Shown in pieces: positions 1,549-27,854 of a stretch of 64,000 nucleotides of DNA (position 1 is its first letter; the number at the start of each line of letters is the position of its first letter). Below the pieces are notes generated by a model. It did not search any database and had not been told where the DNA came from. It saw only the letters and a list, made by a program, of their open reading frames with translations. The translations under genes were made by a program, and so were the position numbers. The stretch is from the NCBI GenBank assembly GCA_016196065.1, contig JACPYL010000010.1, positions 744,001-808,000 on the forward strand, in the 5' to 3' direction. Origin of the DNA: Acidobacteriota bacterium (lineage in GTDB: Bacteria; Acidobacteriota; Terriglobia; Terriglobales; Acidobacteriaceae).

Positions 1549-1635
1549 GGAGAGATGGCCGAGTGGCTGAAGGCGCACGCTTGGAAAGCGTGTTTAGGGG
1601 AAACTCTAACGTGGGTTCGAATCCCACTCTCTCCG
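1549..1635 (+). tRNA. tRNA-Ser(GGA)
   Basis: A complete cloverleaf with a long variable arm, typical of class II tRNA. The acceptor stem GGAGAGA (1549-1555) pairs with TCTCTCC (1628-1634), followed by discriminator G at 1635; an encoded CCA occupies 1636-1638. The anticodon arm is CACGC-TTGGAAA-GCGTG, giving anticodon GGA. The T loop is GGGTTCGAATCCC. The 3' end forms one copy of a 25-bp direct repeat (1619-1643), so the gene is the integration target of the adjacent island and stays intact after insertion. Confidence 0.97.
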
Positions 1636-1643
1636 CCAGTTTT
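1619..1643 (+). repeat. attL, 25-bp core direct repeat within tRNA-Ser
   Basis: The repeat runs from the T arm of the tRNA through the encoded CCA into the following TTTT. It is identical over 25 bases to 28235-28259. The integrase gene begins 67 bp downstream. Confidence 0.88.
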
Positions 1644-1709: not shown

Positions 1710-2873
1710 ATGGCCAACCGCGAAGTCAATCTCACCAAAAGGGTCCAAACACCGCATGGCTGGCGGTATTGCCGCGTTGTGCTGTCCGCTAATGGCCGCG
1801 TCAAGCCTGACTTGGTTATCGTCAATGGCAATCCGGAAACCCACAAGGAAGGCGCGTACTACCTTGAGTGGCGCGAAGGAGCGAAGCGCGTGCGAATCTC
1901 GGTCGGCAAGAACCCAGCCGACGCCGCTGCCCGACGATTACGCAAGGAAGCGGAGTTCAACGCAGCGAACAACGGCGTCTCCGTCTTGCCTGACGGCCAG
2001 GATGGGCACCAGTCGGTAGCTGCAGCCGTCGCCGATTTCCTTGACGAAACAAAGCTTACAAAGAAGCCTAAGACTCTAGCGGCATACTCGACGGCCCTTT
2101 CGTATTTCGTCGAATCCTGCCACAAGCCCAATCTCGAAGAGATCGACCGGAAGGATATCTTGAAGTTCCACGCGTTCCTGCGGGACGAAAAGGGACAGGC
2201 ACCGCGAAGCTGTTGGAACAAGTTCGCTAACGTTATGACGTTCCTGAAGGCGCAAGGGATCCGCGGGCTGGTCGGCAAGAACGACTGGCCGCGGTACACG
2301 GAAGAAGAACCGGAAATCTACGAACCGGAAGAACTCAAGAAACTTTTCGCAGCGTGTGACGCGGAAGAACGACTTTGGTACGAATTCTTCTTGATGACGG
2401 GAATGCGTGAACAGGAGGTCATGTACACGTATTGGTCGGATATCAACGTCACGGCTGGCACGGTTCGCGTCACGCACAAGCCCGACCGAGGGTGGACGCC
2501 GAAGGCATATAAGGAGCGTGAGATTCCGATTCCCTCAAAACTCATGAAGAGCCTCAAGGCTTGGAAAGCGAAATCCGACAAGACATGCAATCTCGTTTTC
2601 CCTACTGCTGGGTGTAATCCCAAGCTCGATTTTCTCGACTGTCTAAAAACGGTATCTGAACGTGCGAAGCTGAACCCAGACGCCTTTCGGCTTCACAAAT
2701 TCAGAGCGACGTTCGCTACGCGATGTCTCTGGGCAGGGGTCGATTTGCGCACGGTTCAGCAGTGGCTCGGTCACTCAGATATGGAATCGACAATGCGGTA
2801 TCTGAAGCCGTCTCGAAGTCAGCAGGTACGCGCGAAGGTCAACGAGATTTTCACTTGGGTTTCGAGACACTGA
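1710..2873 (+). CDS. Tyrosine-type site-specific integrase
   Basis: A 387-aa tyrosine recombinase that most likely catalyses integration and excision of the surrounding island at tRNA-Ser. ATG at 1710 is preceded by AGGAAGGA; the open frame extends upstream into the tRNA but cannot be coding there. Residues about 100-190 form a SAM-like core-binding domain (VADFLDETK...LAAYSTALSYF). The C-terminal catalytic domain keeps the expected residues: Arg in TGMREQEV, His and Arg in LHKFRATFAT, His in LGHSD and the nucleophile Tyr in MRYLKP. The gene is 18 bp from a convergent gene. No separate excisionase is seen. Confidence 0.93.
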   Translation: MANREVNLTKRVQTPHGWRYCRVVLSANGRVKPDLVIVNGNPETHKEGAYYLEWREGAKRVRISVGKNPADAAARRLRKEAEFNAANNGVSVLPDGQDGHQSVAAAVADFLDETKLTKKPKTLAAYSTALSYFVESCHKPNLEEIDRKDILKFHAFLRDEKGQAPRSCWNKFANVMTFLKAQGIRGLVGKNDWPRYTEEEPEIYEPEELKKLFAACDAEERLWYEFFLMTGMREQEVMYTYWSDINVTAGTVRVTHKPDRGWTPKAYKEREIPIPSKLMKSLKAWKAKSDKTCNLVFPTAGCNPKLDFLDCLKTVSERAKLNPDAFRLHKFRATFATRCLWAGVDLRTVQQWLGHSDMESTMRYLKPSRSQQVRAKVNEIFTWVSRH

Positions 2874-15226: not shown

Positions 15227-16453
15227 ATGACGACGCGTGTTTGGTTACGGTCAGGGAATGGTGCCGCCCGAAAATCTCTCGCGACGGTTGGGGCCCTTTC
15301 ATTCATTTTCGCTGCCATAGCAGGCCATCCAAAATTTACAGAAGCTGAGGCCGCTGCGCCCGGCAAGAAATACCGTGTATCCCAGACTCTCCCTCTGACC
15401 AGCTTCTATGCCACTCCACATCCGCTGCCAGCGGGTACACCCGGCATACTGATCCGTTCGGAATCCACCGATCAATACCAACTTCCGTTTGAGTTGTCGG
15501 CATTCAGGATCCTCTATCATTCCCGAACCGCAAACGGAGAAGATGTCCCTGTCTCGGGAGTGGTGCTGATTCCCGGTGGGAACCCACCCAAGGGGGGATG
15601 GCCTGTGATTGCCTGGGCGCACGAGTTTCGGGGAACTGGGCGACAGTGCGCTCCTTCGTTGTTAAAGAATCTTGGCGTGGGGCCGCGCATCGCGATGTAT
15701 GCCAATCTCGGATATGCAGTGGTAGCGACAGACTATTCCGGGTTGGGCGTTGATTCCGGCAAGGTGGAGCTGGACATGCAATCGAACGCATTGGACGTCA
15801 TCTACTCCATTCCGGCGGCGCGTGCGGCGGCACCACAAATCGGGCCTAAATGGATCGCTTTGGGATCTTTCCAGGGGGCACTGGCTGCGGTCGCGATCGC
15901 GGAGAGTGAGGTACGCGATCCGAATTATCTGGGTAGCATCGCCACCTCGGGCTTGGCGGATGCACAATCGACCTATCGGCGCTTCGCTCTGACTTCTTCC
16001 ATTCCCATGTTGCTCGACGTAGCGTCGACGATCAAAGCGCGTAATCCGGAGTTTCACTTAAGCGACATGCTGAACGACATGGCACTCCCAGCTTACCAAC
16101 AGGCCGCGCAGACCTGCGGAGGGGATACCGACCCGGCAGCGTTCACCAGCGAAATGCTCAACCCGGACTGGGAGAACAAGAAGTTCGTAAAGGAATTTTT
16201 CAGCAGGAACACTCCCGGTCTACGTACCTCCCACAGCCCGCTCCTGGTTATCAGTGGAGAGGCAGACCCTGTGATTCCGGGTGACATGTCAAGAGCAACC
16301 GTCGCCCGGATGTGCAAACAAGGCGACAGAATTCTCTTTTTGAAGTATCCGAATCTGGATGCCAGCGGCGCGATGGGAACTTCGACGTCAGACCAGATTA
16401 GTTGGATCAAGGCACGATTTGCGGGCGATGCCGCGCCTCGTAATTGTCCTTAA
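15227..16453 (+). CDS. Secretory-lipase-like alpha/beta hydrolase homologue lacking catalytic Ser and His
   Basis: A 408-aa exported protein with a hydrophobic segment at residues 18-33 and homology in style to secretory lipases (LIP family): GGWPVIAWAHEFRGTGRQCA, YAVVATDYSGLG, VISGEADPVIP. In active members the nucleophile elbow reads GHSQGG; here it reads GSFQGA, so Phe occupies the Ser position. The His normally in YPGxDH is Ala here (YPNLDASGA). The Asp in GEADPVIP remains. The fold therefore seems intact but hydrolysis is unlikely, so a binding role or decay is inferred. The start ATG 15227 has no good ribosome-binding site. It converges on the oxidase operon. Confidence 0.72.
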   Translation: MTTRVWLRSGNGAARKSLATVGALSFIFAAIAGHPKFTEAEAAAPGKKYRVSQTLPLTSFYATPHPLPAGTPGILIRSESTDQYQLPFELSAFRILYHSRTANGEDVPVSGVVLIPGGNPPKGGWPVIAWAHEFRGTGRQCAPSLLKNLGVGPRIAMYANLGYAVVATDYSGLGVDSGKVELDMQSNALDVIYSIPAARAAAPQIGPKWIALGSFQGALAAVAIAESEVRDPNYLGSIATSGLADAQSTYRRFALTSSIPMLLDVASTIKARNPEFHLSDMLNDMALPAYQQAAQTCGGDTDPAAFTSEMLNPDWENKKFVKEFFSRNTPGLRTSHSPLLVISGEADPVIPGDMSRATVARMCKQGDRILFLKYPNLDASGAMGTSTSDQISWIKARFAGDAAPRNCP

Positions 16454-16492: not shown

Positions 16493-16828
16493 CTAGCCAG
16501 TCCCATCAGAATCAGGCGTGTCGTCAGCCTGTCGGAACTGATTGCGTTTGCGATGAACGATAAAGATCATGCAGACCGACATGAACGTAGGGGGGACGAT
16601 AAGAATCAGAATCCCGCTTCGCAAAGCCTGAATCATTCGAGCACCGGCCGAGGCGGCCTGCGTATAGCACAGGGAGCAGCTCTGGGAGAAGGCCGGGGAG
16701 GGAGTGGCGAGCATGGCCACTCCAATAACGACTATGCCAATCCACAGCGACGGCTTCCGGAGCTTGAATTGCATTCTTAGCATCTTCCCAGAGTTCCTGA
16801 TATCTGCCTCGTGCTGGCTGCTTTTCAC
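16493..16828 (-). CDS. Small membrane protein with CxxC motif at end of oxidase operon
   Basis: A 111-aa protein with a possible export segment (residues 28-48), the motif CSLCYTQAAS (Cys51, Cys54) and a second hydrophobic helix (about 68-92), ending in a charged tail. The GTG at 16828 overlaps the TGA of the preceding oxidase gene (GTGA), which suggests coupled translation; ATG 16783 or 16774 are alternatives that would give a cleaner signal peptide. Being the last gene of a cytochrome oxidase operon and carrying a Cys pair facing the periplasm, it could help metal or haem assembly. That is inference; I do not recognise a named family. Confidence 0.65.
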   Translation of the reverse strand: MKSSQHEADIRNSGKMLRMQFKLRKPSLWIGIVVIGVAMLATPSPAFSQSCSLCYTQAASAGARMIQALRSGILILIVPPTFMSVCMIFIVHRKRNQFRQADDTPDSDGTG

Positions 16829-17142
16829 TTTACGTTTGAGAAGGGCGCACCGGTCACCATCCGAGTGCTATCAGTCCATCCATATTGCAACCCCAACAGG
16901 ACAGAAATCGTAAAGGCCACAACGAAGAGCAAGAAGGCGCGCTTTTCTGACCAAAGATGCATAAAAAATAATACTGCCAGACCCGCCTCGATGCAGGCGA
17001 CGGCCATCATCCGCGTGAGCATCTGTGTGGTGCCGATGTTTTGGTAGGCGACGAGGAATTGCACGCCTGCGAGAGCGAGTAGGCAAACGTAGATGACCAT
17101 ATCTTTCCCGATTCCGTTACTCTTATGCTCTTCAGCTGTCAT
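16825..17142 (-). CDS. Cytochrome c oxidase subunit IV-like protein
   Basis: A 105-aa integral membrane protein with three hydrophobic helices (about 13-34, 40-60, 68-88). The second contains VLFFMHLWSEKR, the signature seen in prokaryotic oxidase subunit IV / CyoD-like proteins. It follows the second subunit III-like gene by 26 bp and overlaps the next gene by 4 bp, so it belongs to the same operon. It is presumed to stabilise the subunit I-III complex in the inner membrane and has no redox centre. Confidence 0.85.
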   Translation of the reverse strand: MTAEEHKSNGIGKDMVIYVCLLALAGVQFLVAYQNIGTTQMLTRMMAVACIEAGLAVLFFMHLWSEKRAFLLFVVAFTISVLLGLQYGWTDSTRMVTGAPFSNVK

Positions 17143-17168
17143 AGCATTCCGCTCCCCGGATTGTTGCC

Positions 17169-17789
17169 CTAGTGGCTGAGATTCAAAAGGTAAACCAGCG
17201 GTACTACGAACATCCAGACCAGATCCACGAAGTGCCAGTAGAGACCCAGTATCTCGATGTCATCGGCGTTATAGCGGCCGCCCTTGTAGCGCACACCAAC
17301 GACGAGCAGAGCGATGAGTCCGCAAGAAACGTGGGTGAGATGCAACCCCGTGATGCTGAAAAATGATGCCCCAAACAATCCCGTTCCCCAGGGATTCTTG
17401 AACAGGGTCATGCCTTCTCCAATCAGAGCGATCCACTCGCGAACATGCAGAACAGCGAAGACGAGGCCTAGAGCCGCGGTGATCATGGTCCAGCGGAACG
17501 CTCCCGACTTGTCTCCGGCACGCGCTGCGCGCAGCCCGGTGAGCATCGTCAAACTGCTGGTCAGGAGGACGAAGGTCATAATGGCGACATTCGTGATGCT
17601 GTGAAACGGTCTCGGCCAGTCAGGAGTGCCATTGCGCAAGAATCCATAGACGACAAGGCACGCAGCGAAGGTCATGGTGTCGGCAATAATAAACAGCCAC
17701 ATCGCCAGCTTCTTCGAAGGAATGGAAAATGCCGGTCCTATCGTCAGACCTGTCGAATGTGCTTCCATGGTCAAATCCGCTTGGCTCAC
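17169..17789 (-). CDS. Cytochrome c oxidase subunit III
   Basis: A 206-aa membrane protein of the heme-copper oxidase subunit III family. It has the N-terminal helix KLAMWLFIIADTMTFAACLV, the conserved second-half motif GLHLTHVSCGLIAL and the C-terminal YWHFVDLVWMFVVPLVYL. Five hydrophobic segments are visible. It has no cofactor by family knowledge and supports proton uptake and stability of subunit I. Together with the preceding gene it makes two subunit III-like proteins in one operon, 24 bp apart. Confidence 0.92.
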   Translation of the reverse strand: MSQADLTMEAHSTGLTIGPAFSIPSKKLAMWLFIIADTMTFAACLVVYGFLRNGTPDWPRPFHSITNVAIMTFVLLTSSLTMLTGLRAARAGDKSGAFRWTMITAALGLVFAVLHVREWIALIGEGMTLFKNPWGTGLFGASFFSITGLHLTHVSCGLIALLVVGVRYKGGRYNADDIEILGLYWHFVDLVWMFVVPLVYLLNLSH

Positions 17790-17813
17790 GGCGCCTCCTA
17801 GTGGTCGGGTCGG

Positions 17814-18491
17814 TTAGAGTTTCATCCAAAGCAGCACAATCAGATACACCCAAAGCGCGCCCATGAAATGCCAGTAATGCGCGGTGGCAACCAGAGTATT
17901 TTGCCGTAAAGCCGACTGACCGAGCTTGCGAATAACGTGAATCAGTCCGCCTAGACCACCCAAGACGTGCAGCGCGTGTGTGGCAGTCAGCACGTAGAAA
18001 AAGGAACTGCTTGGATTAGTGGCTAGATACATTCCCTGCGCCCGCAATTGCGTCCAGGCAATATATTGACCAGCGACAAAGAGCAGGCCGAGAAACAAAG
18101 TGACATACAGCCAGCGTGACGGGCTCTCAGAGCTACTTCTCAAACCACCCATGAAGGCGGCGATACGTCGACGCGCAATTTCGAGAGTTGCGCTGCTGGC
18201 AAGCAGTAGAAACGTGTTGAGATAAAGGATCGACGGCAATCTAAAAGTCTGCCAGTCCAGCGATGATCCCTTGCGAACGATCAGTGCGCTGGTAAACGCG
18301 GCAAACATCATGGTGATGGCGAACAGTACCACCCAGATGGCAGTCGACGAGGGTGGTGGTGAATAATCTAGTGCCGCATGCAGGTTGCCGCCCGCTGGAA
18401 CGAGATTTTTCCAACCGCGGTTCCCGATGTGTCCTTGGTCGGGCTGGCGGTTCGGGTCTATTTGCGGTGGTTCATGTACCGTACTTGCCAT
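17814..18491 (-). CDS. Cytochrome c oxidase subunit III-like protein (first of two)
   Basis: A 225-aa membrane protein of the subunit III family with five helices, including ATHALHVLGGLGGLIHVI and the closing HYWHFMGALWVYLIVLLW. ATG 18491 is chosen over the longer frame to 18710, which would overlap the coding end of subunit I; GAGGAG lies 11 nt upstream. The cytosolic N-terminus (about 55 residues) is Pro- and Gly-rich. Compared with the following gene it is more divergent, so the pair looks like an ancient duplication with different roles rather than a recent copy. Confidence 0.85.
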   Translation of the reverse strand: MASTVHEPPQIDPNRQPDQGHIGNRGWKNLVPAGGNLHAALDYSPPPSSTAIWVVLFAITMMFAAFTSALIVRKGSSLDWQTFRLPSILYLNTFLLLASSATLEIARRRIAAFMGGLRSSSESPSRWLYVTLFLGLLFVAGQYIAWTQLRAQGMYLATNPSSSFFYVLTATHALHVLGGLGGLIHVIRKLGQSALRQNTLVATAHYWHFMGALWVYLIVLLWMKL

Positions 18492-18532
18492 AACGTTCCA
18501 AACTCCTCTTCGGCGAGGAAGTTCCTCGTAGG

Positions 18533-20314
18533 TTATTTCTCGTCGTGCTCGGTCTTGACTTGCTCGGGCGAAGTCTGCATCAGATAATCGCCAACCGAAC
18601 TCTCCACGCCATATTGATAGGGATCGTGGTAGACCACGGGGTGTTTCCCGCCGAAATTGTCGAAAGGCGGAGGCGTGGCCGTACTCCACTCCAGCGAAGT
18701 TGCCTCCCACGGGTTATCTGGCGCGGGTTTGCCCCAATAGCGGCTGTGAATAAGGTTGTAGAGAAAAACCAGTTGCGCAGCGCCCGTGATCAGGGCCGCT
18801 ACGGTGATAAAGCGGTGGACTGGAATCAGAGGTTGTAGGAAGTCGTCAGTGAAGGTTGAATAACGGCGTATGTTGCCGGCCATACCCAGGTAATGGAATG
18901 GCATAAAAATGCAATACGCTCCCACGAAGCTCAACCAGAAATGAAGTTTCCCCAGAGTCTCGTTCATCATTCGTCCAGCCATCTTGGGAAACCAGAAGTA
19001 AGTTCCCGCGAAGATGCCGAACATGGCCGCGACGCCCATCACCAGGTGGAAATGACCCACAACAAAGTAAGTAGCGTGCAGCATGATATCGATGGATGGC
19101 TGAGCCAGAAAGAAGCCGCTCACGCCGCCACTGACGAACATCGAAATAAAGCCCAAGGCAAACAGAGAAGCCGAGTTGATTCGGAGCTTGGAACCGTACA
19201 GGCTGAAAGTCCATATCAATACGACGACTGTCGACGGGATCGTAATGACCAACGTGGGGAAAGAAAATGCCAGCGAAGAAAACGGATTCATGCCACTGAC
19301 AAACATGTGATGGCCGTAGACCATGTAGCTAAGAACGGCCAGTGCTCCCATGGAATATATGAGCACCCTTGCGCTCAGCATCGGCCGGCGCATGTTGGTG
19401 ATTAGGACATGCGAGACAATGCCGATGCCGGGCACAATCGCGATATAGACCTCAGGATGTCCGAAGAACCAGAACAGGTGCTGCCAGAGAAGAGTCGAGC
19501 CGCCCGAGTGCGGCAGCACTTGATCATTCAACACCAGATTTGAGGCAACAAAGAAGCTGGTTCCGGCGACGTGGTCAAGGATAACCAGGATACAAGCCGG
19601 CATTAACACGGCAAATGCTGTCAGACCCATGCACGAGGTAATGAACCACGCCCAAGCAGAGAGGGGCAGGCGCATGAGGCTCATCCCTTTAACTCTCAGA
19701 TCTAGAGTCGTGGGAATGAAATTCAATGAGCCCAACAACTGGCCAACACAAAACAAAGCAATGGAAATTGCCCAAAGAACGACACCCGTACCTTGTCCCG
19801 GACCTCCCACCGCACCGATCGAATTGAGCGGTGCGTATTGGGTCCAGCCACCCAATGTTGGTCCATCGCCTACAAAGAATGAGGCCATCAGCACAAGAAA
19901 AGCGACGAAGGTGACCCAAAAAGACATCATGTTGAAACGGGGGAAGGGCATGTCTTCCGCGCCGACCTGGATGGGCAAAAAGAAGTTGCCGAACGCGGCG
20001 AAGGGCGCGGTTGTGAGCACAAAAAAGACCATGATGGTTCCGTGCATGGTCATCAATTGCAGGTAGTACTCCGGCGTCATCACGCCACCAGGGGCCCCGC
20101 TGGAAGAAAGCAACTGCAGGCCGGGGATGGCAGCATTGTTCCAAGCAAGGTGAATGCGCATCAGCCAGGAGAGAAACATTCCGACAATAGCGGCGAACAG
20201 GGCCAGCGCATAATACTGTTTCCCGATTACCTTGTGGTCCTGGCTGAAGATGTGCTTCCGAATGAAACTGGTCGGAGGAGCATGGTGCGCCGCTTGCACT
20301 GACGTGTCGTGCAT
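18533..20314 (-). CDS. ctaD: Cytochrome c oxidase subunit I, A-type, K-channel lysine absent
   Basis: The 593-aa catalytic subunit of a heme-copper oxygen reductase in the inner membrane. GAGGTGAGG precedes ATG 20314. Visible ligands: H91 and H423 (low-spin haem), H421 (high-spin haem), CuB H286, H335 and H336, and the cross-linked Y290 in HPEVY. E288 of the D-channel and the entrance motif EDMPFPRFN (D121, N128) are retained, which places it with A1-type enzymes. The K-channel lysine, found in PTGIKVFSW of classical enzymes, aligns with V364 in IPSTVVVLIW. Haem type cannot be read from sequence; ctaB is nearby but no ctaA, so haem O or haem A made elsewhere are both possible. Confidence 0.95.
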   Translation of the reverse strand: MHDTSVQAAHHAPPTSFIRKHIFSQDHKVIGKQYYALALFAAIVGMFLSWLMRIHLAWNNAAIPGLQLLSSSGAPGGVMTPEYYLQLMTMHGTIMVFFVLTTAPFAAFGNFFLPIQVGAEDMPFPRFNMMSFWVTFVAFLVLMASFFVGDGPTLGGWTQYAPLNSIGAVGGPGQGTGVVLWAISIALFCVGQLLGSLNFIPTTLDLRVKGMSLMRLPLSAWAWFITSCMGLTAFAVLMPACILVILDHVAGTSFFVASNLVLNDQVLPHSGGSTLLWQHLFWFFGHPEVYIAIVPGIGIVSHVLITNMRRPMLSARVLIYSMGALAVLSYMVYGHHMFVSGMNPFSSLAFSFPTLVITIPSTVVVLIWTFSLYGSKLRINSASLFALGFISMFVSGGVSGFFLAQPSIDIMLHATYFVVGHFHLVMGVAAMFGIFAGTYFWFPKMAGRMMNETLGKLHFWLSFVGAYCIFMPFHYLGMAGNIRRYSTFTDDFLQPLIPVHRFITVAALITGAAQLVFLYNLIHSRYWGKPAPDNPWEATSLEWSTATPPPFDNFGGKHPVVYHDPYQYGVESSVGDYLMQTSPEQVKTEHDEK

Positions 20315-20371
20315 ATCCTCACCTCTTGATGATGTGTCGATTCGCCCGCGCTCAAGCGTGGTCGGGCTGAC

Positions 20372-21172
20372 CTACTGCCCTGCTTGTTGCTTAAGCCAAT
20401 TGTCGAAGTCCTGCTGGGACATCACTTCGAGATACGCCTTCATGTTGTAGTGCCCCAAGCCACATAGTTGGGTACAAACGATTTCGTATTTGCCGACCTT
20501 CGTTGCCGTGAAGTGCAGCGAAACGTCCAACCCGGGAACAAAGTCCTGCTGCACACGTAACTCGCGGACGAAGAAGGAATGTCCCACATCTTTCGCGTGC
20601 ATGAGGAGATGGACTTCCTTATTGACAGGGATCGCCATCTCGGCAGCCACGATGTCGTCCCGTGCATCCACGTCGTGCTCAGGATCAAGTCCAAAGATAT
20701 TCTGAGAACCTTCGTTAATAAGCTCGGGGCGAAGGCCACCGAACTTACCATCAGGGCCGGGATAGCGAAAATAAAAAGCGAATTGCCCGGCTTGAACCTG
20801 GATGGGCATGGCATTGGCTGAGGGCGCATCGAGGTAGACGTTAGCCCACGCCTTCACTCCGAATACACCCAGGGCCATGACTTCTACTCCGACGACTAGC
20901 AACGCAGCAATCACCAAGCCCTTGGCGCCGCCCGGAAAACTCTTGATCTTCGCGTCCGGGCCACGATTGGAAAACTTCCAGATAAACAGCGCCAAAATGA
21001 ATTGGGCCGCGAGGAAAGAGATGCCCGCCTCAGCCATGGTTTCAGACATCTGCTCATCGATTAAAGCTCCATGAGTCGAGATGTCTTCTGGGGCCACCCA
21101 AGTGTGTCGCAGGATGGGGATCGCGGAAAAGATCGCGATGAGAACGATGGTGATCGAAAACAATTTCGCCAT
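20372..21172 (-). CDS. coxB: Cytochrome c oxidase subunit II with CuA site
   Basis: A 266-aa subunit that accepts electrons from a periplasmic donor and passes them to subunit I. The CuA ligand set is complete: H198 (VGHSFF), C233 and C237 (CTQLC), H241 and M244. Three hydrophobic segments precede the cupredoxin domain (about 4-22, 45-66, 84-106), one more than usual, and there is an acidic insert around 138-172 (EHDVDARDD). There is no fused cytochrome c domain, so a separate donor is needed; the operon supplies a diheme cytochrome and a cupredoxin-like protein. ATG 21172 follows AGAGGG at 10 nt; the longer frame to 21232 is not favoured. Confidence 0.93.
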   Translation of the reverse strand: MAKLFSITIVLIAIFSAIPILRHTWVAPEDISTHGALIDEQMSETMAEAGISFLAAQFILALFIWKFSNRGPDAKIKSFPGGAKGLVIAALLVVGVEVMALGVFGVKAWANVYLDAPSANAMPIQVQAGQFAFYFRYPGPDGKFGGLRPELINEGSQNIFGLDPEHDVDARDDIVAAEMAIPVNKEVHLLMHAKDVGHSFFVRELRVQQDFVPGLDVSLHFTATKVGKYEIVCTQLCGLGHYNMKAYLEVMSQQDFDNWLKQQAGQ

Positions 21173-21250
21173 GATGCTTTGCCCTCTGATTGCTGCTTCC
21201 GACCTGTAGCGAAAGCGCAGCGACGCGCACAAACCGCCGCTGCTCTTCCG

Positions 21251-21952
21251 TCAGTAAGCCTTCGCCTTGAAGGTAAAGTTCACGTCCTTGGTTTCGTTAC
21301 CTGTGATGGTGACGTCGGCAGTCTGTGTGCCGTAATCCTCATGCCAGGCAGTGACGGTGTACTTGCCAGGGGGCAGATTCGGGAGCTTGAACTCTCCACC
21401 ACCCTTGCTCAGGTCGTAGTGATTGGTGTTGAGCACTGCGAAAATACCATGCATCCAAGGATGAACATTGCACTTCACCGAGATGAATTCGGCTTTGTCA
21501 TATTTCTCGGACAAGGGCGGCGTTCCGGGTGGCTGGGATTTGTTCCACTCGCGGTTCACCTTGGCCAGCGGATGGATGTTGTGCGAAGTTTGGTCGCTGT
21601 TGATGACCTTCAGTTCCTGGTTGACGTGCATGGGCAGAACATGCGGAATGTACTGGCAACCCTTCTGCTCGAAGGTAACAGCCTGCGACGGAACCTGGCC
21701 GTCATCGGGCGCGCCGGATGAGATATACACCACGACGTTTTCCAGCGCGTTGTTGGGGCCGGCTACCACTGTTTCGACCGTCACGGGTGTGACATGCTGC
21801 TTGGCACAGCTAGGTTCCTTGGACATGTCGATAGGTTTTTGCTTCGCAGGGGTCCCCGTATAGACGACTTTGCCGCTGACGGTTCCAGCGAACAGCAGAG
21901 CGGGAAAAACCAGTAGAGCCATCAGTGCGATCAGTGTTTGTTTTGTGCGCAT
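21251..21952 (-). CDS. Periplasmic cupredoxin-like protein with carboxypeptidase-regulatory-like tail
   Basis: A 233-aa exported protein (signal peptide about residues 1-22). The central domain resembles a plastocyanin/cupredoxin fold with a candidate type 1 copper set: His in SHNIHP (H124 or H127), C161, H164 and M167 in KCNVHPWMH. The last 45 residues (GGGEFKLPNLPPGKYTVTAW) resemble a carboxypeptidase-regulatory-like beta module. ATG 21952 has AGGAGA about 10 nt upstream. Lying between the diheme cytochrome and subunit II genes, it is a plausible copper electron shuttle to CuA; methylamine-utilisation-like annotation of related proteins gives no specific function. Confidence 0.78.
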   Translation of the reverse strand: MRTKQTLIALMALLVFPALLFAGTVSGKVVYTGTPAKQKPIDMSKEPSCAKQHVTPVTVETVVAGPNNALENVVVYISSGAPDDGQVPSQAVTFEQKGCQYIPHVLPMHVNQELKVINSDQTSHNIHPLAKVNREWNKSQPPGTPPLSEKYDKAEFISVKCNVHPWMHGIFAVLNTNHYDLSKGGGEFKLPNLPPGKYTVTAWHEDYGTQTADVTITGNETKDVNFTFKAKAY

Positions 21953-21983
21953 GTAAGTCATTTCTCCTGGAATCACGATTTCG

Positions 21984-22886
21984 TTAGTGCCCGCCGACGT
22001 GCGTTTCCATTGTGGAATTCGACGGAGAAGCGTTCTCCGACTTGTTTTCCAGCGTCTTGAATGTTGACGGACCGCCCGCGCCTTTCAGGACATCGTTCTC
22101 CTTGCTGCGCCGTTCGGTTTGCAGTGTTCGCAGATAATGCACAAGATCCCAGGCATCGTTCGGCTGAATCACGTCCGCGAACGAAGGCATGGGCGTGCCG
22201 TCGACCCCGGTCATGAAGATGCGGTAGAGATCCTGATTTTCCGAACCGCACTTGAAGCGCGAATCGTTGTGACCTTGCGAAAAATTGTACGGACGAATGG
22301 GTTGATCCTTGCTGTCGGTCAGGGTCGAGGCCGAAGGTCCATCGCCGTGTCCCTGTTGCCCGTGGCACTTCCAGCATTCCATCTTCTGAAAGAGTTCATG
22401 GCCGTGCCGGATGCTTTCAATGGTGACGGGAGTCTCCGGCGGGATCTTGATTGGGTCGCCGGGCTTCTCGGTTTTCCAACGGTCCGAAAAAGTTTTGATG
22501 TAGGCGACGAGATCCTGCCGGTTCTCCTCGCTCAGCGGGCGCCAGGACGGCATGTTGCTGGCCTGTACTCCGCGAATCAGCGTGTTGATCAGATCCGAAT
22601 CGAGTGGGAGCGTCCCGGTCGGGGTGGACCGGCACTTAAACGTAGCTGCGGTAAAGTCGCGCGGCTTTGGGTCGATGAAGGCGGCGTTGTCGCCGTTGCC
22701 GTCACCGAACGTACCGTGGCAATACACGCAGTACCGCAGGTACAATCCGTGACCGCGCTGTTCGGCGGGGGCCAGGCCATCGTGCTTGGTGGGATAGCCG
22801 GAACTGATCCCGGCATTCTGGGCGAGCGCACTACCCGCGATCGCGGCAAGGAGCAAGATCGAGTGGCAAATCATTCGGCTCTTCAT
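21984..22886 (-). CDS. Periplasmic diheme cytochrome c
   Basis: A 300-aa exported protein (signal peptide about 1-22) with two class I cytochrome c domains. Haem sites are CVYCH (C53-H57) and CWKCH (C171-H175); likely axial Met ligands are M112 (SNMPSW) and M233 (TPMPSF). ATG 22886 follows GGGAGAG. A polar, Ser/Asn-rich tail of about 45 residues ends in His. It sits between the outer-membrane cytochrome-porin and the cupredoxin/oxidase genes, so it is the natural periplasmic carrier between outer membrane and oxidase. That path is inference from gene order. Confidence 0.92.
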   Translation of the reverse strand: MKSRMICHSILLLAAIAGSALAQNAGISSGYPTKHDGLAPAEQRGHGLYLRYCVYCHGTFGDGNGDNAAFIDPKPRDFTAATFKCRSTPTGTLPLDSDLINTLIRGVQASNMPSWRPLSEENRQDLVAYIKTFSDRWKTEKPGDPIKIPPETPVTIESIRHGHELFQKMECWKCHGQQGHGDGPSASTLTDSKDQPIRPYNFSQGHNDSRFKCGSENQDLYRIFMTGVDGTPMPSFADVIQPNDAWDLVHYLRTLQTERRSKENDVLKGAGGPSTFKTLENKSENASPSNSTMETHVGGH

Positions 22887-22898
22887 GTGCACTCTCCC

Positions 22899-24272
22899 TT
22901 AGAACGCGAAGTCGAATCCGGTGAACAAGCTGTTGCTGCGCTGGTCGGCGCCGGTGTCCGACGTCTTGGTCGATTTCAACGTGGAGAACTCGATATGCCA
23001 CGCAAAACCCGCGCGGCTGTTGATGAATGGGTAGTACCGGTACGCCGCTGTAAACACGTCGGTATTGCCGAAATCTTTCGGTAAGTCGACCACCGGCTGG
23101 GTCGACATGCGCACGATCTCGTACCGTCCCAAAACGAAATGTTTGGGCGAAAAGAGATAGTGGCCTTCGAACGTACCGGTATTCCAAGATGCGCCCCGAA
23201 TACCTTCCGGAATCTCATCCGGCGGCGTATTCGCCGGAACATTGTTGGACAGCAGAGCGTTGTCAGACGCACGCTGGAAAACGCCCTCCAGATCGAACTT
23301 CCCGATGTATAAGTTGCCATAAGCGCCGGCTCGATAGAACGACCGATTCCCACGCCCAGTCCCTCCAATCGGATTTCCATCTCCATCGGTCAGGAAGTAA
23401 GTCGGACGAAGTCCGGCGACTCCAAACACGCCCACTCTCTGCAGCCCAAGCTTGCCCGCCATGAACCCCTGGCTGATGTGCAGTGCGCCATCGTAGCTCC
23501 TTCCGCCGGGAAGTCCGAGGTTGCCGTTGGTGCTGCTGATCAGCGAAGCCGCGTAGCGCGTGTGGTCGTCGAGGGAGTGTCCCATCAACTCGACTCCGAG
23601 CTGATTCTCCCCCACCGTGAAGTCATTGATGTTGTTCCCACCGAACGGGACGTAGTGGTAAAGCTGATACGCTCCGCCCTGATTGGAGAATGTCATCATT
23701 CGCTTCTCGGAGAGCGGCCCGTCCAATTCGAACTTTCCAAACTTCAAGTTGAACCACGGAGAGCCCTTGATGTTGTCGATTCGAATGTTGGCCGACTCAA
23801 AACCTACCGTTCCGGCCACGCCATCGATGGACGGCACCAGTAGGAAGGAAATGTTTTTGGCGAGCGTGCCCCCGGTCAGGATGTCGATGCCCGTGAGATC
23901 GAAGCCCGAGGTGTTTATCGTTCTCTCAACCGTGCCATCGCCCGACTGCACCGTCTGATGTCCGGCGCTTTCATAGTGCCAGTGCGGAGTAATGCGCATG
24001 GCCACCGGCCAGTATGAAGGGTTCATCCAGATCGGCGAATCGCGATCGTTGTTGAGCTGGTAGCCGTTGTCTTTGAAGTTCTGTCCGAAGCTATTCAGCT
24101 TCGGCCAAGCTTCGTGACAAGCTGAACAAGGCAACCCATACTTTCGGGCGAAGGCCGGGATCGCATATCCGGGCGTGCTATTCAGGACCACCAGCAACAG
24201 CAGCAGCCCAGCAAAATAAATAGCCGGGCGGATCTGCGTTCGATACGCGCAAACATGGGAGGGCTTAGGCAT
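22899..24272 (-). CDS. Cyc2-like outer-membrane monoheme cytochrome-porin fusion
   Basis: A 457-aa protein. After the signal peptide (hydrophobic 18-30, ending PGYA) comes AIPAFARKYGLPCSACHEAW with a single haem site C49-S-A-C52-H53, then PKLNSFGQNFKDNGYQL. The remaining 380 residues are alternating amphipathic strands ending in Phe (GFDFAF), as expected for an outer-membrane beta-barrel. The N-terminal pattern (Ala-x-Pro-x-Phe-Ala-Arg, CxxCH, then Pro-x-Leu-Asn and a Gly-Tyr) is the pattern of Cyc2-type fused cytochrome-porins that pass electrons from extracellular Fe(II) inward. Family placement is by eye; many relatives lack a known function. ATG 24272 has GAGAGGA 6 nt upstream. It is the first gene of the oxidase operon. 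Confidence 0.78.
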   Translation of the reverse strand: MPKPSHVCAYRTQIRPAIYFAGLLLLLVVLNSTPGYAIPAFARKYGLPCSACHEAWPKLNSFGQNFKDNGYQLNNDRDSPIWMNPSYWPVAMRITPHWHYESAGHQTVQSGDGTVERTINTSGFDLTGIDILTGGTLAKNISFLLVPSIDGVAGTVGFESANIRIDNIKGSPWFNLKFGKFELDGPLSEKRMMTFSNQGGAYQLYHYVPFGGNNINDFTVGENQLGVELMGHSLDDHTRYAASLISSTNGNLGLPGGRSYDGALHISQGFMAGKLGLQRVGVFGVAGLRPTYFLTDGDGNPIGGTGRGNRSFYRAGAYGNLYIGKFDLEGVFQRASDNALLSNNVPANTPPDEIPEGIRGASWNTGTFEGHYLFSPKHFVLGRYEIVRMSTQPVVDLPKDFGNTDVFTAAYRYYPFINSRAGFAWHIEFSTLKSTKTSDTGADQRSNSLFTGFDFAF

Positions 24273-24673
24273 ACGATCCTCTCTGCAGTCTGAGAATGTG
24301 ACGGGTAAAATCGAGCGTAGATAAGGGTAGAGCGCGCCGGGCAAGGACTCCCGGTGCTTTGTGGCCGCGAGTTCGCGACACTACGGCGAACTCCGAGGAA
24401 TCTCCAGGTTCCCTCAAGTAAACGCCATCCTTGCTACCCCAAGCTTTGGAGCGGGACTATACTCGGCCTCTTGCTTCGGAGTCAAGGAGTCTTTGATTTT
24501 TTTGATGAGCCCAATCGAAAAAGTAAATCGCCCTGGCAATATCCCGGCTGCGGCGTGGGATTTTTGCAGTGGAGATTCGCGAGCTAAGTCCGCAGACAAA
24601 AAGGCGCGTTGGCAGCGACGACGAATCGCTACGCGGCGATTGATCTTGACTTTGGCTTTCGTCGAGAGTAGGT
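24273..24673. promoter_or_regulatory. Divergent promoter region between oxidase and ctaB operons
   Basis: About 400 bp separate the divergent respiratory operons. On the plus strand TTGACT (24646-24651) and TAGGTA (24669-24674) are 17 bp apart, a possible sigma70 promoter. If real, it would place the transcript start after the ATG at 24674 and favour the ATG at 24707 for the next gene. No clear minus-strand promoter or operator is seen. Confidence 0.35.
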
Positions 24674-25570
24674 ATGCATGCACTTGGAGTGATCGTTCGA
24701 CCGCCTATGTTTCGCTCAATGCAGCGCTGCGTATCAGGCCGTTGCTTGTCTCAAATCGCGAAGTGCCTCGCATGGTTCCTGTTCGCCGCGCTCCCCTGTT
24801 TCGCCCAGGAAGGTGGATTCAACGGGTCGCTCGATGATCCGGAATCTGAAGTGCTTAAAGCCGTGGACCTGGTCGCGAATGATTCCGTCGTTTATGGAAC
24901 TTACTCCTACGAAAAAGAAAAACAACTGAAGGGTGCAAAGCCAGCAAGCTCGGTGAGCGTATTCCGCGATGTTCCCGGTAATGCCCGAGTATTTTTCAAA
25001 GTCCTTGAGAACGTGCTCGCCCCACGCCATTTCAAGGAGACCGCCGACCTGGGCACGATCTACTTGCGCTACATTGTGCAGGGGACCAGTCCCAGTTCAA
25101 CCGCGATTCACATCGACGCCCTCTACGTGGAGAAGAACCGACGTCGTCAACACCAGTCGGATGGAACGGTCGAGCACAGCGAATTTGAAGCCATCAAGGA
25201 TCGCCTGGAGAAGATGCACGGCGACGCTAAAGCTGTCAGCGAGATGGCTGAGCAGCACTCCGCAACAGCGCCACCGGCAAACGAGGGTCGTGCAAGCGGA
25301 AACATTGTCGAGACCAATACGTCGCCACTTGCTTCCGAGGACGATTTGGAAAAGCACGTCGCAAGCCTGAAACACAGTATTGAAGTGCGCACGGCAGCGG
25401 GTGGAGCCGCGTTGAAAGCCGCTCCCTATCGCACTGCCGCCACGTTGCAACCGTTGCATGAGAAGGCCGAGTTACTGGTCGTCGTGTTAACCAAATACTG
25501 GTATGGCGTGGAAACCGCCGACGGACATCGCGGATGGATTCATCGCAGTCAGGTAGAAGCCCTGCCATGA
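24674..25570 (+). CDS. Exported SH3-like domain protein, first gene of ctaB operon
   Basis: A 298-aa protein with an export signal (about residues 27-44, CLAWFLFAALPCFAQ). A conserved-looking middle domain (about 50-160; VFFKVLENVLAPRHFKETAD, then GTIYLRYIVQG) has no family I recognise. A linker follows, and a C-terminal bacterial SH3-like domain (about 235-298, ending YWYGVETADGHRGWIHRSQV). Start is uncertain: ATG 24674, 24707 and 24719 are all in frame. Its TGA overlaps the ATG of the next gene (ATGA at 25567-25570), indicating translational coupling. SH3b domains usually bind peptidoglycan or proteins in the periplasm; a role in oxidase or haem assembly is inference from context. Confidence 0.7.
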   Translation: MHALGVIVRPPMFRSMQRCVSGRCLSQIAKCLAWFLFAALPCFAQEGGFNGSLDDPESEVLKAVDLVANDSVVYGTYSYEKEKQLKGAKPASSVSVFRDVPGNARVFFKVLENVLAPRHFKETADLGTIYLRYIVQGTSPSSTAIHIDALYVEKNRRRQHQSDGTVEHSEFEAIKDRLEKMHGDAKAVSEMAEQHSATAPPANEGRASGNIVETNTSPLASEDDLEKHVASLKHSIEVRTAAGGAALKAAPYRTAATLQPLHEKAELLVVVLTKYWYGVETADGHRGWIHRSQVEALP

Positions 25571-26898
25571 CCCCCGCGCCCACATTTTTCCGCAGGAACC
25601 GGGGGCGAAGACTCGCTGCACTAGTTCTGCTTGCGAGCGCGATCGCCGCGGCTCAAAGTAATCCATCCGAACATGTTTTTCACGCCTCGCGCGCGGATAT
25701 AGATAAGGCTTTGGCAAGCTTGCACGCAACCTCCCCGGGACGCTTGCCGATTCTGGATGGTTTTGTTGGTCCCGAAGTCTCCGCAGTGGAGAAATATCAG
25801 CGCGCTTACTATCAATACAAACTGGAGATTCGTCCGGTAAACGCCGGAACGATGTCGCTTCGCGTCATCGCTAAAGTTACCGCATGGTATGTCGGCGACA
25901 ACGCCACCCAGGCCGGATATCGCGTCTTACCTTCAAACGGTCGCCTGGAAACTGATCTGGTCGAGCGACTGGAGGAGGCGCTGCAACAAAAATCGGCGAA
26001 TGTTGCAGGGGAAGAAACCAAACCCAGCGCAGGCACGGGCAGGGCGAGTACGGATTCGGCCTTGCCACAAAAGCCTTTTCAAGGCCGTGCTCCGACTCTG
26101 GGCTCGGCAAGCGCAAAGCCTTCTACTTTTGGCCTCGCATTCCCGAACGACCAGTCCGCATCCCGCGTTGGCATGACGCCGCCCAACTCGCGGGAACTGG
26201 CCCAACAGAAACATTTCCAGCAGCTCAGCGAGCAAGCAGCGAATCTGGAAGAAGTCCTTCGCAGTCAGATGCGGCCTAATGATCTTGCGGCTGTTCGAAA
26301 GACCGGGACCTTAGTTCTCGCCAAGCCGATTGATACTGGCGCCGTGCTTTTTCGAGCGGACGCCGAAGACGAATTCAAAGTACTCGAGGAGTCCCTGGGC
26401 TGGGTACACGTTCAGGTCTCCGGTATTTCGCGCGGATGGATTCGCAGGTCGGAGTTAGAAATGCCGGGTGAATCCGTCGCAGTGGAGAGTGCGGGCACTC
26501 AACTTCCCGCAAAATCTCCCGCGCCCGAAACACACGAAGAGACATCGTTATTTCCCGGAGACTGGTCGGCATTGCGCGGACATGTCGTACGAATAACCTG
26601 GGTGCGATCCGGTGCCGGCACTGCATCAGGGAGCGAGGACCGTTTGCTCCTCGCGCGCTCGGTGTTTCGCGACACTTATGGCAGCGTCACCCGGAGCAAC
26701 CTGAAGGTTGACGGTGTCGTGATTGTGATCGACGCCGCCGACGGTGGAATGATCGCGGCTACCAGCGACGCGTTACGGCGTTGGAACACCGGCGCGATCT
26801 CTGACGCAGCTTTTCGAAAAGAGTGTTGGACTGATTCGCCGGAGGCTCTCGGCGAAACTGCGCAGCGCGAGGGTGGCACCAAGTCCCAAAACCAATGA
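25567..26898 (+). CDS. Exported SH3-like domain protein, second gene of ctaB operon
   Basis: A 443-aa protein with export signal LAALVLLASAIAAAQ (about 17-31). ATG 25567 is chosen because it overlaps the previous stop. The N-terminal domain (40-155; YYQYKLEIRPVNAGTMSLRV) resembles the middle domain of the preceding protein, so the two may be divergent paralogues. After a Ser/Pro-rich linker and a coiled-coil-like helix (QKHFQQLSEQAANLEEVLRS) an SH3-like domain follows (about 245-305; LGWVHVQVSGISRGWIRRSE). A C-terminal domain of about 120 residues is not recognised. The ATG of ctaB overlaps its TGA, so all three genes are translationally linked. Confidence 0.7.
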   Translation: MTPAPTFFRRNRGRRLAALVLLASAIAAAQSNPSEHVFHASRADIDKALASLHATSPGRLPILDGFVGPEVSAVEKYQRAYYQYKLEIRPVNAGTMSLRVIAKVTAWYVGDNATQAGYRVLPSNGRLETDLVERLEEALQQKSANVAGEETKPSAGTGRASTDSALPQKPFQGRAPTLGSASAKPSTFGLAFPNDQSASRVGMTPPNSRELAQQKHFQQLSEQAANLEEVLRSQMRPNDLAAVRKTGTLVLAKPIDTGAVLFRADAEDEFKVLEESLGWVHVQVSGISRGWIRRSELEMPGESVAVESAGTQLPAKSPAPETHEETSLFPGDWSALRGHVVRITWVRSGAGTASGSEDRLLLARSVFRDTYGSVTRSNLKVDGVVIVIDAADGGMIAATSDALRRWNTGAISDAAFRKECWTDSPEALGETAQREGGTKSQNQ

Positions 26899-27854
26899 CT
26901 CTCATGGCAGACACTTCACCAGCACTCGTTCATCCTGCGTACCGAATTGACAGTCTCCTGCGTGATTACGCGGAACTGACTAAAGCGCGCATCACCACTC
27001 TGATCGTTGCTACCGCATGGGCAGGATATTTTTTTGGTGCGCACAAATCCAGCGCATCGGCGCTGTCCGCGGGACTGGTTCATGCACTGTTCGGTGTTGG
27101 CTTGGTGTCGAGCGGAACGGCGGCTCTAAACGAAGTACTGGAGTCTGGGGTGGATGCCCGCATGCACCGCACGGCGCAGAGACCGTTGCCAGCGGGACGC
27201 ATGACACGCGCGCACGCTGCCACTGTCGGGACAGTTTTGACTCTTGGAGGCTCACTCTATCTCGCCTTTTTTGCCAATCCACTCACGGGAGCGCTGGTTT
27301 TGTTGACTGCGCTCGTCTATCTCGCGGCCTATACCCCACTCAAACGCGTCTCTCCAGTCTGCACTTTCGTGGGCGCGTTTCCCGGAGCCATGCCAGTTCT
27401 GCTGGGCTGGACGGCGGCTCGCGGGCGCGTGGAAATCGAAGCCTTGATACTTTTCGGAATCATGTTCGTCTGGCAGTTTCCGCATTTTCTTTCCATCGCA
27501 TGGCTCTACCGCGAGGACTACGCGCGTGGTGAGATCCGCATGCTGCCCGTGGTCGATGCCGATGGGCAATCCACCGTGTGGCGTATTTTGGCGTACTCCG
27601 GCGTTCTCATTCCCGTGAGCATTTTGCCTGTCGCGATGGGAATGGCGGGCCGCGCGTATTTGATTGGCGCGGTTCTGATGGGCGCTGCGCTGTTCCGGGT
27701 TTCACTAGGAATGGCGTATCCGAGATTGCCTGCCACGGCGGCCGCGTCCAAACCTTCGGCCCGTCGCTTGTTGCGCGCAACAATCATCTATCTACCATTT
27801 CTGTTCGGCCTTATGATGGCCAACTCGGTTTCCGCCCTGTCCCATTCCCGTTAA
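26895..27854 (+). CDS. ctaB: Protoheme IX farnesyltransferase (haem O synthase)
   Basis: A 319-aa UbiA-superfamily integral membrane enzyme that adds a farnesyl group to haem b to make haem O, the cofactor (or haem A precursor) for heme-copper oxidases. Nine hydrophobic helices are visible. The first prenyl-diphosphate motif is NEVLESGVDARM with MHRTAQRPLPAG, and the second is YREDYARGEIRMLP. Its start overlaps the preceding stop (ATGA). It is divergent from the oxidase operon on the same island, so the island carries its own cofactor enzyme. No haem A synthase (ctaA) gene is in the window. Confidence 0.95.
   Translation: MTLMADTSPALVHPAYRIDSLLRDYAELTKARITTLIVATAWAGYFFGAHKSSASALSAGLVHALFGVGLVSSGTAALNEVLESGVDARMHRTAQRPLPAGRMTRAHAATVGTVLTLGGSLYLAFFANPLTGALVLLTALVYLAAYTPLKRVSPVCTFVGAFPGAMPVLLGWTAARGRVEIEALILFGIMFVWQFPHFLSIAWLYREDYARGEIRMLPVVDADGQSTVWRILAYSGVLIPVSILPVAMGMAGRAYLIGAVLMGAALFRVSLGMAYPRLPATAAASKPSARRLLRATIIYLPFLFGLMMANSVSALSHSR

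Follow-up and report, generated by a model that had tools for sequence, protein, structure and literature searches.

The locus described here raises the question whether a bacterium of the Acidobacteriaceae possesses a dedicated route by which electrons from outside the cell reach oxygen. It lies in a stretch of 64,000 nucleotides, referred to as the window, from an Acidobacteriota bacterium (assembly GCA_016196065.1, contig JACPYL010000010.1, positions 744,001 to 808,000). On the minus strand, from position 24272 to 16493, nine closely packed genes extend from one for a Cyc2-like outer-membrane cytochrome-porin (cyc2), through genes for a diheme cytochrome c, a cupredoxin-like copper protein and a cytochrome c oxidase, to a small CxxC gene; judged by their spacing, they are probably co-transcribed. 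Divergent from them, on the plus strand (24674-27854), are sh3a, sh3b and a haem O synthase gene (Table 1). We assign a probability of roughly 0.6 to the interpretation that this locus is a rus-like respiratory branch, which would connect a reductant outside the cell, most likely Fe(II) in solution or in organic complexes, with O2. An earlier interpretation made from the letters of the window alone (the sequence-only reading) had proposed a self-contained and mobile chain from the cell surface to O2. A conserved cluster of a Cyc2-like porin, carriers and a CuA oxidase in rus order was indeed found, whereas mobility and self-containment did not hold up.

A chain from an extracellular donor to O2 is argued here because the cluster is conserved in the order of an experimentally studied operon. 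According to the accessible parts of two reports, the rus operon has the order cyc2-cyc1-cup-coxBACD and is induced by Fe(II) (PMC10654088, PMC2754497). The order cyc2-diheme c-cup-coxB-coxA-coxC-coxD is present in the window, with two COX3 genes in the place of coxC. From cyc2 to coxA, the order is found at 36 loci of acidobacteria, which represent 35 genomes plus one named contig: 32 regions of the family, the window, the genomes G084 and G210, and a contig under the title Candidatus Acidiferrum. A chance arrangement is excluded by this recurrence. The genes, coordinates and order of the earlier reading were confirmed.

Of the 398 family genomes, 96, spread over 27 of 79 genera, have a Cyc2 match with an E-value of 1e-20 or better; among the 256 of good quality the number is 49, and in the genus 21 of the 24 genomes have one. 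Forty Cyc2 regions were picked by hand, non-randomly, among these 96 genomes, two of which (G452 and G459) contributed two regions each; one region was a 3-kb contig. The 39 larger regions (L119-L157) comprise 32 with the full order, one cut after coxB and six without a neighbouring oxidase, and in one of the 32 (L141) the SH3 pair has moved inside the operon. Two more of the 32 contain a gene in two pieces, the cupredoxin gene in L140 (G459) and coxA in L121 (G594), by mutation or assembly error. A contig scan returned seven contigs with close Cyc2 relatives, all of them acidobacterial loci; the six that reach past cyc2 keep the same order to the contig end, two of them with one gene in two pieces. 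In a phylum-wide draw, a Cyc2-like match (E 0.001) was found in 115 of 396 genomes, many of the matches covering the N-terminal part only. At L044-L048 cyc2 stands alone, and a tblastn search of plasmids for reference Cyc2 returned just three weak proteobacterial records.

The first protein of the operon has, by eye, a signal-peptide-like start, followed by AIPAFARKYGLPCSACHEAWPKL and a strand-rich remainder. As given in the accessible text of Keffer 2021 (PMC8406198), Cyc2 proteins are characterised by one CXXCH, an upstream AXPXFAR[Q/K][T/Y], a downstream PXL, a length of at least 365 amino acids and a 16-stranded OprO/OprP-like porin; the sequence features are all found in the window protein (AIPAFARKYGLPCSACHEAWPKL, 457 amino acids). 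The same text places the motif five residues upstream of the CXXCH, compared with three in the window protein and in two proteobacterial Cyc2-like proteins used for comparison. PXFAR[Q/K][T/Y] is present in 39 of 42 operon-type relatives, the other three being off by one residue. The sequence gave chance matches only in the Protein Data Bank (PDB). A Foldseek search with a low-confidence AlphaFold2 (AF2) model placed OprP (2o4v) first (E 1.8e-9, template-modelling score 0.48), followed by PorB, with OprO in 6th and 12th place, and this predicted OprP-like fold lends weak support to the Cyc2 identity.

Pfam cut-offs are exceeded by CoxB, CoxA, both COX3 proteins and COX4; CoxA and CoxB stay under the NCBIfam equivalog cut-offs (526.5 against 670.75 and 112.5 against 147.7 bits), the match being each protein's best in NCBIfam. 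The Cyc2-linked CoxA sequences form a clade of their own (34 rows, support of 100 in the Shimodaira-Hasegawa-like approximate likelihood-ratio test, SH-aLRT, and a stem of 0.55 changes per column), and 33 of the 34 come from a locus with Cyc2. The 34th, from G147, which was counted in the clade despite having no cyc2 and is labelled L158 in the tree, is the first branch within the clade (support 84). The comparison set of 31 acidobacterial CoxA proteins outside the clade consisted of the top-ranked non-clade matches with loci and five fetched later, and excluded the canonical oxidase of the genome itself (L059); duplicates (L032-L035, L038, L060, L062-L064), identical proteins and frames of up to 480 amino acids were left out of the CoxA set.

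At the position that we take to be that of the K-channel lysine, from alignment to solved oxidases and from known residue roles, all 34 clade members carry V, L, I or M (V at residue 364 in the window), and all 31 proteins outside the clade carry K, most of them within PSAIKTFNW. Three residues further on, N is found in 30 of the 31, and I, V, L, M or T in the clade. The D-channel aspartate, HPEVY, the CuB histidines and the CuA residues are all retained. In CoxB of the clade, the glutamate of the CuA loop is changed to Q and the tryptophan of QFxW to F or Y; among 19 CoxB proteins outside the clade, two have the Q and none has QFxF/Y. Mutations in the K-channel severely impair model aa3 enzymes. 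Because the loss of the lysine is one evolutionary event, its link with Cyc2 counts as a strong association and not as independent replication. No contig carries both one of the 31 outside coxA genes and a Cyc2 match, and in the larger contexts obtained for 19 of them (up to 20 kb, some ending at contig ends) no relative of cyc2 or of the diheme gene was found. By these comparisons, the Cyc2-linked oxidase is a distinct, K-less clade that is new here. A literature search, conducted largely without subscription papers, found reports of Cyc2 in acidobacterial genomes and no description of the operon or of the oxidase clade.

The two periplasmic carriers are less readily placed. The diheme protein contains two cytochrome c stretches (Pfam E 4e-21 and 1e-19), and its best PDB match by phmmer is 6h5l (E 2e-51), which we take to be a Kuenenia protein; none of its five PDB matches with E up to 0.01 is named cytochrome c4. 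The cupredoxin part of the copper protein, which has no Pfam match, is predicted from conserved H/C/H/M residues. Its phmmer search of the PDB, with E up to 1, returned no rusticyanin or Cup entry, although divergent relatives could escape such a search, and no rusticyanin gene is present within the operon, none having been looked for elsewhere in the genome. Relatives of the copper protein (39-44% identity) were found near 6 of the 19 oxidases outside the clade (L162, L163, L164, L166, L174, L175), and relatives of the small CxxC gene near 3 of them. Since both occur near outside oxidases, they are likely older partners of this oxidase type, which suggests that the copper protein partnered oxidases before Cyc2 joined.

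The operon is composed of blocks with different histories. Mirrortree comparisons of the window and 31 of 42 candidate loci, namely those with nine genes present, yielded r values of 0.81-0.95 within sh3a-sh3b-cyc2, 0.63 for the diheme and cupredoxin genes and 0.54-0.89 from coxB to the small gene. Across blocks, r was mostly 0.1-0.3 and reached 0.52 (cyc2-diheme); the blocks persisted without the loci of window-type Cyc2 (cross-block r up to 0.47), and five cross-block pairs examined by permutation were still above chance (p 0.001-0.047). In the Cyc2 tree the window groups with L119-L121, its CoxA being nearest to those of L157, L144, L154 and L135, and forcing these CoxA neighbours together on the Cyc2 data was rejected (approximately unbiased test, p-AU 8e-6); the trees were quick SH-aLRT trees without bootstrap, and the set for this test was picked after seeing the tree of a different gene, CoxA. 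Blocks inside the operon do move, and because they are physically contiguous, recombination alone explains them.

The divergent operon with the haem O synthase gene and two exported SH3 proteins is present as had been read. The SH3 label itself is moderate for sh3b, with 21.8 bits to PF08239 against a cut-off of 27 and an SH3 domain as the best Foldseek match (E 1.5e-3) of an AF2 model built from 7 sequences (predicted local distance difference test, pLDDT, 63), and weak for sh3a, which has no Pfam match. As the pair travels with Cyc2, it is a likely partner of the outer-membrane end; we met no mention of such co-inheritance in the accessible part of the Cyc2 literature.

We infer the direction of electron flow, the order of the carriers, the donor and the role of the SH3 proteins as follows. 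Cyc2 in the outer membrane would take up electrons onto its single haem; these would be received in the periplasm by the diheme cytochrome c, the copper protein or both, and from there would pass to CuA of the aa3-type oxidase, to haem a, to the a3/CuB site and to O2. The role of the two SH3 proteins would most likely be assembly or tethering of the Cyc2 end; ctaB would provide haem O. The host would probably be a mixotroph or heterotroph in which the branch makes or protects membrane potential, and not a RuBisCO-based autotroph.

Several observations weigh against a rus-like branch. Neither rusticyanin nor a c4-type Cyc1 could be recognised in the operon by sequence, and the copper protein is not specific to the Cyc2 chain, given its relatives near outside oxidases. 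The AF2 model of Cyc2, built from 8 sequences, is of low confidence (pLDDT 49, predicted template-modelling score 0.44, 15 strands called), and to our knowledge no Cyc2 of this subgroup has been biochemically tested. The six oxidase-free loci of the family consist of five with cyc2-diheme-cupredoxin and one with cyc2 only, and the distant loci L040, L042 and L043 have cyc2 and a diheme cytochrome gene with no cox genes in the stretch. L158 (G147 C38, 6652-13672) contains a clade oxidase and a cupredoxin gene without cyc2 and the diheme gene, which are replaced by a 573-amino-acid protein with one CXXCH, a possible alternative electron-input module. Furthermore, an acidobacterial Cyc2 is assigned to cluster 3 in the available portion of PMC9671151, and the function of that cluster, the least certain of the three, is described as uncertain in the accessible text of PMC8406198 and PMC13264449, though its Leptospirillum member Cyt572 oxidises iron. 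In the accessible part of PMC10654088, the Leptospirillum Cyc572 is traced to a cluster that includes homologs from acidobacteria and Nitrospira.

The remainder of the genome bears on how such a branch would be used. The sequence-only reading had called the chain full and self-contained; the operon genes are all there, but the haem A synthase is encoded elsewhere in the genome (G000 C10:1678466), which makes the second term too strong. Two further COX1 genes are present, so that other oxidases are available for ordinary respiration; one of them encodes SHPAVY and the K lysine and is accompanied by a subunit II to which a CXXCH domain is fused and, about 5 kb away, by an NrfD-family gene. The genome has four NrfD-family matches. 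A RuBisCO search of the genome gave no match, and autotrophy by the Calvin-Benson-Bassham cycle was rejected on this ground, RuBisCO being the only route searched. With these genes at hand, the haem A synthase elsewhere and no RuBisCO match, a facultative, energy-supplementing branch fits.

Two rival explanations concern what feeds the oxidase. If the path leads from an extracellular donor to O2 and the donor is not Fe(II), then Mn(II), reduced humic quinones, minerals, partner cells or an electrode, for example, could supply the electrons. We consider this unlikely, though it deserves some weight: Cyc2 has also been proposed for Mn(II) lithotrophs in the accessible part of PMC9040806, the function of cluster 3 is uncertain in the two reports named above, the named relatives include some from records titled fen, groundwater and 30-cm samples, settings with several plausible donors, and the copper protein matches no rusticyanin entry. 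The literature, as far as its text was accessible, instead predicts dissolved Fe2+ as what the monohaem protein acts on. The other rival, which appears improbable to us, is an ordinary alternative oxidase that receives electrons from the quinol side through the diheme cytochrome, with Cyc2 as a haem porin in another role, such as sensing or ligand uptake, that merely shares its regulation. It would accommodate the NrfD-family matches, one of them near another oxidase, the copper-protein relatives near outside oxidases, the clade oxidase without Cyc2 in G147, and cyc2 without a neighbouring oxidase at 6 of 39 family loci and at L040, L042 and L043. It does not sit well with the pairing of the oxidase clade with Cyc2 in 33 of 34 cases, nor with the eight K-containing oxidase clusters, in which the 6 kb upstream of coxB, or as much of them as the stretch included, contained no open reading frame with CXXCH of at least 100 amino acids apart from an unrelated-looking one in L163.

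A mobile island that delivers the whole chain to new hosts, as the sequence-only reading had it, is in our judgement very improbable. A tyrosine integrase gene and the tRNA-Ser gene it adjoins are indeed present in the window; that the operon belongs to an island with them is unsupported, nothing ties it to the integrase, and the claim that the chain lets a recipient use an extracellular donor is likewise unsupported. The patchy occurrence in the family (27 of 79 genera) and the conflict between the Cyc2 and CoxA trees could be taken as signs of transfer, but Cyc2 is found in 21 of 24 genus members and the conflict concerns blocks within the operon and not the operon as a unit. The lipase-like gene that adjoins the far end of the operon could be looked for at 10 other genus loci whose sequence runs beyond that end; it occupies the same place at four (L135, L144, L146, L157) and is missing from it at six (L119, L120, L131, L136, L153, L154), so the position of the operon varies yet is partly shared. 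The 3' end of the tRNA-Ser has one match in the window at up to 3 mismatches, where a short or diverged attachment site could escape; genome-wide, with 2 mismatches allowed, this contig has no match besides the tRNA itself, three matches lie on other contigs, and a single perfect copy exists in the genome. Integrase relatives occur in 14 of the 24 genus genomes, its own included, and in all 11 others with both an integrase relative and Cyc2 the two lie on different contigs, which is weak evidence because contigs are often short. The G+C content is 0.53-0.59 throughout. The operon as a mobile island was rejected, being near-core in the genus, without a second attachment-like repeat and without a link to the integrase; recombination of its parts was kept.

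Table 1. Genes and other features of the window (positions within the 64,000 nucleotides)
Feature	Position	Strand	Evidence or remark
cyc2-like outer-membrane cytochrome-porin	22899..24272	-	457 aa, one CXXCH; A-I-P-A-F-A-R-K-Y ... CSACH ... P-K-L motif
Periplasmic diheme cytochrome c	21984..22892	-	PF13442 and PF00034
Exported cupredoxin-like copper protein with C-terminal CarboxypepD_reg domain	21251..21976	-	PF13620 E 5e-10; SHNIHP, KCN(V/I)HPWM
coxB, CuA subunit II of cytochrome c oxidase	20372..21172	-	PF00116 E 7e-10; CuA loop CTQLCGLGHYNM
coxA, subunit I without K-channel lysine	18533..20314	-	PF00115 E 1.6e-122; residue 364 = V
cox3a, COX3-type subunit	17814..18491	-	PF00510 E 7.6e-8
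cox3b, second COX3-type subunit	17169..17789	-	PF00510 E 1.1e-11
cox4, prokaryotic COX subunit IV	16825..17142	-	PF03626 E 1.2e-7
Small conserved membrane protein, CxxCYTQAA, 111 aa, last gene of the cluster	16493..16828	-	Kept at operon end
sh3a, exported SH3-type protein, divergent from cyc2	24674..25570	+	Distance covariation with cyc2, r 0.81
sh3b, exported, bacterial SH3 domain	25534..26898	+	PF08239 below cut-off; Foldseek; r 0.83 with cyc2
ctaB, haem O synthase	26895..27854	+	TIGR01473, 245 bits against cut-off of 210
Secretory-lipase-like gene, convergent flank, outside the chain	15227..16453	+	PF03583; adjoins operon in L135, L144, L146, L157
tRNA-Ser (GGA), adjoining the integrase	1549..1638	+	ARAGORN and Rfam
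Tyrosine integrase, 13.6 kb from the operon	1710..2873	+	PF00589 E 3e-25 for open frame

Other arrangements of Cyc2-like genes were seen in the course of the analysis. The genome of the window encodes a second, distant Cyc2-like protein (L054, G000 C18, 6922-9089; 23-29% identity) with FSRQY replacing FARKY and a copper-protein relative downstream, and similar pairs occur in G210, G073 and G394. On a Methylocystis plasmid whose source was an alpine peat bog (L184, 5836-9606), a Cyc2-like gene is followed by three c-type cytochromes. A lone cyc2-diheme-cupredoxin triplet lies near what appears by eye to be a ferredoxin-like and an NrfD-like gene in L126 (G452 C6, 4508-10402), and the same genome also carries the full operon (L124). 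In L147 (10655-11062) and L152 (8972-9355), a short gene that by eye resembles a winged-helix regulator precedes lone cyc2 triplets, hinting that these are under their own control.

A further proposal joins two claims, namely that the K-channel loss is an adaptation of a Cyc2-fed oxidase and that the operon is a second, largely independent rus-like iron chain in the Acidobacteriota. Taken together these are tentative, and we lean somewhat against them. On the stem of the clade, the K-route would have been abandoned, with protons taken up via the D-channel or a new path, and pumping would have been lowered or abolished, so that the little driving force offered by a high-potential extracellular donor would suffice for the oxidase; the rus-like chain would then have been built a second time, with carriers of its own and with SH3 proteins assisting at the outer-membrane end. 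A natural A-family oxidase without the K-channel lysine, in a nearly constant genetic setting, would allow two questions to be tested directly, whether the K-route is indispensable and whether high-potential donors select for reduced pumping. If the interpretation as a rus-like branch is correct, about a quarter of the genomes sampled from this soil and peat family bear a dedicated chain from the surface to O2, aerobic iron oxidation would extend to acidobacterial mixotrophs, and cluster 3-like Cyc2 proteins would gain a testable context.

Compared with the rus operon of Acidithiobacillus ferrooxidans (cyc2-cyc1-cup-coxBACD-rus-ctaTBA), the locus likewise begins with a Cyc2-type gene, followed by a diheme cytochrome c, a copper protein and coxB-coxA-cox3-cox4, with haem O synthase nearby. 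It differs in a diheme cytochrome that matches 6h5l best and no c4-named protein, in a copper protein with a CarboxypepD_reg domain and no rusticyanin match, in the lack of a rusticyanin gene from the operon and the location of ctaA elsewhere, and in the presence of two COX3 genes, a small CxxC protein and a divergent SH3 pair. Since the carriers match no rus counterparts, only Cyc2 and the oxidase class are common to both systems as far as tested. With the Cyc2 family (clusters 1-3) the window protein shares the motif, the single haem and the length, and a low-confidence model predicts a porin-like fold for it; its co-inheritance with a pair of SH3 proteins sets it apart from the family as published in the texts accessible to us. 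The oxidase resembles A-family (aa3) enzymes in its CuA residues, CuB histidines, D-channel aspartate and HPEVY, whereas its K-channel lysine and a neighbouring polar residue are replaced, nearly always by hydrophobic ones, its CoxB has Q for E in the CuA loop and QFxF/Y for QFxW, and both subunits score below the NCBIfam equivalog cut-offs.

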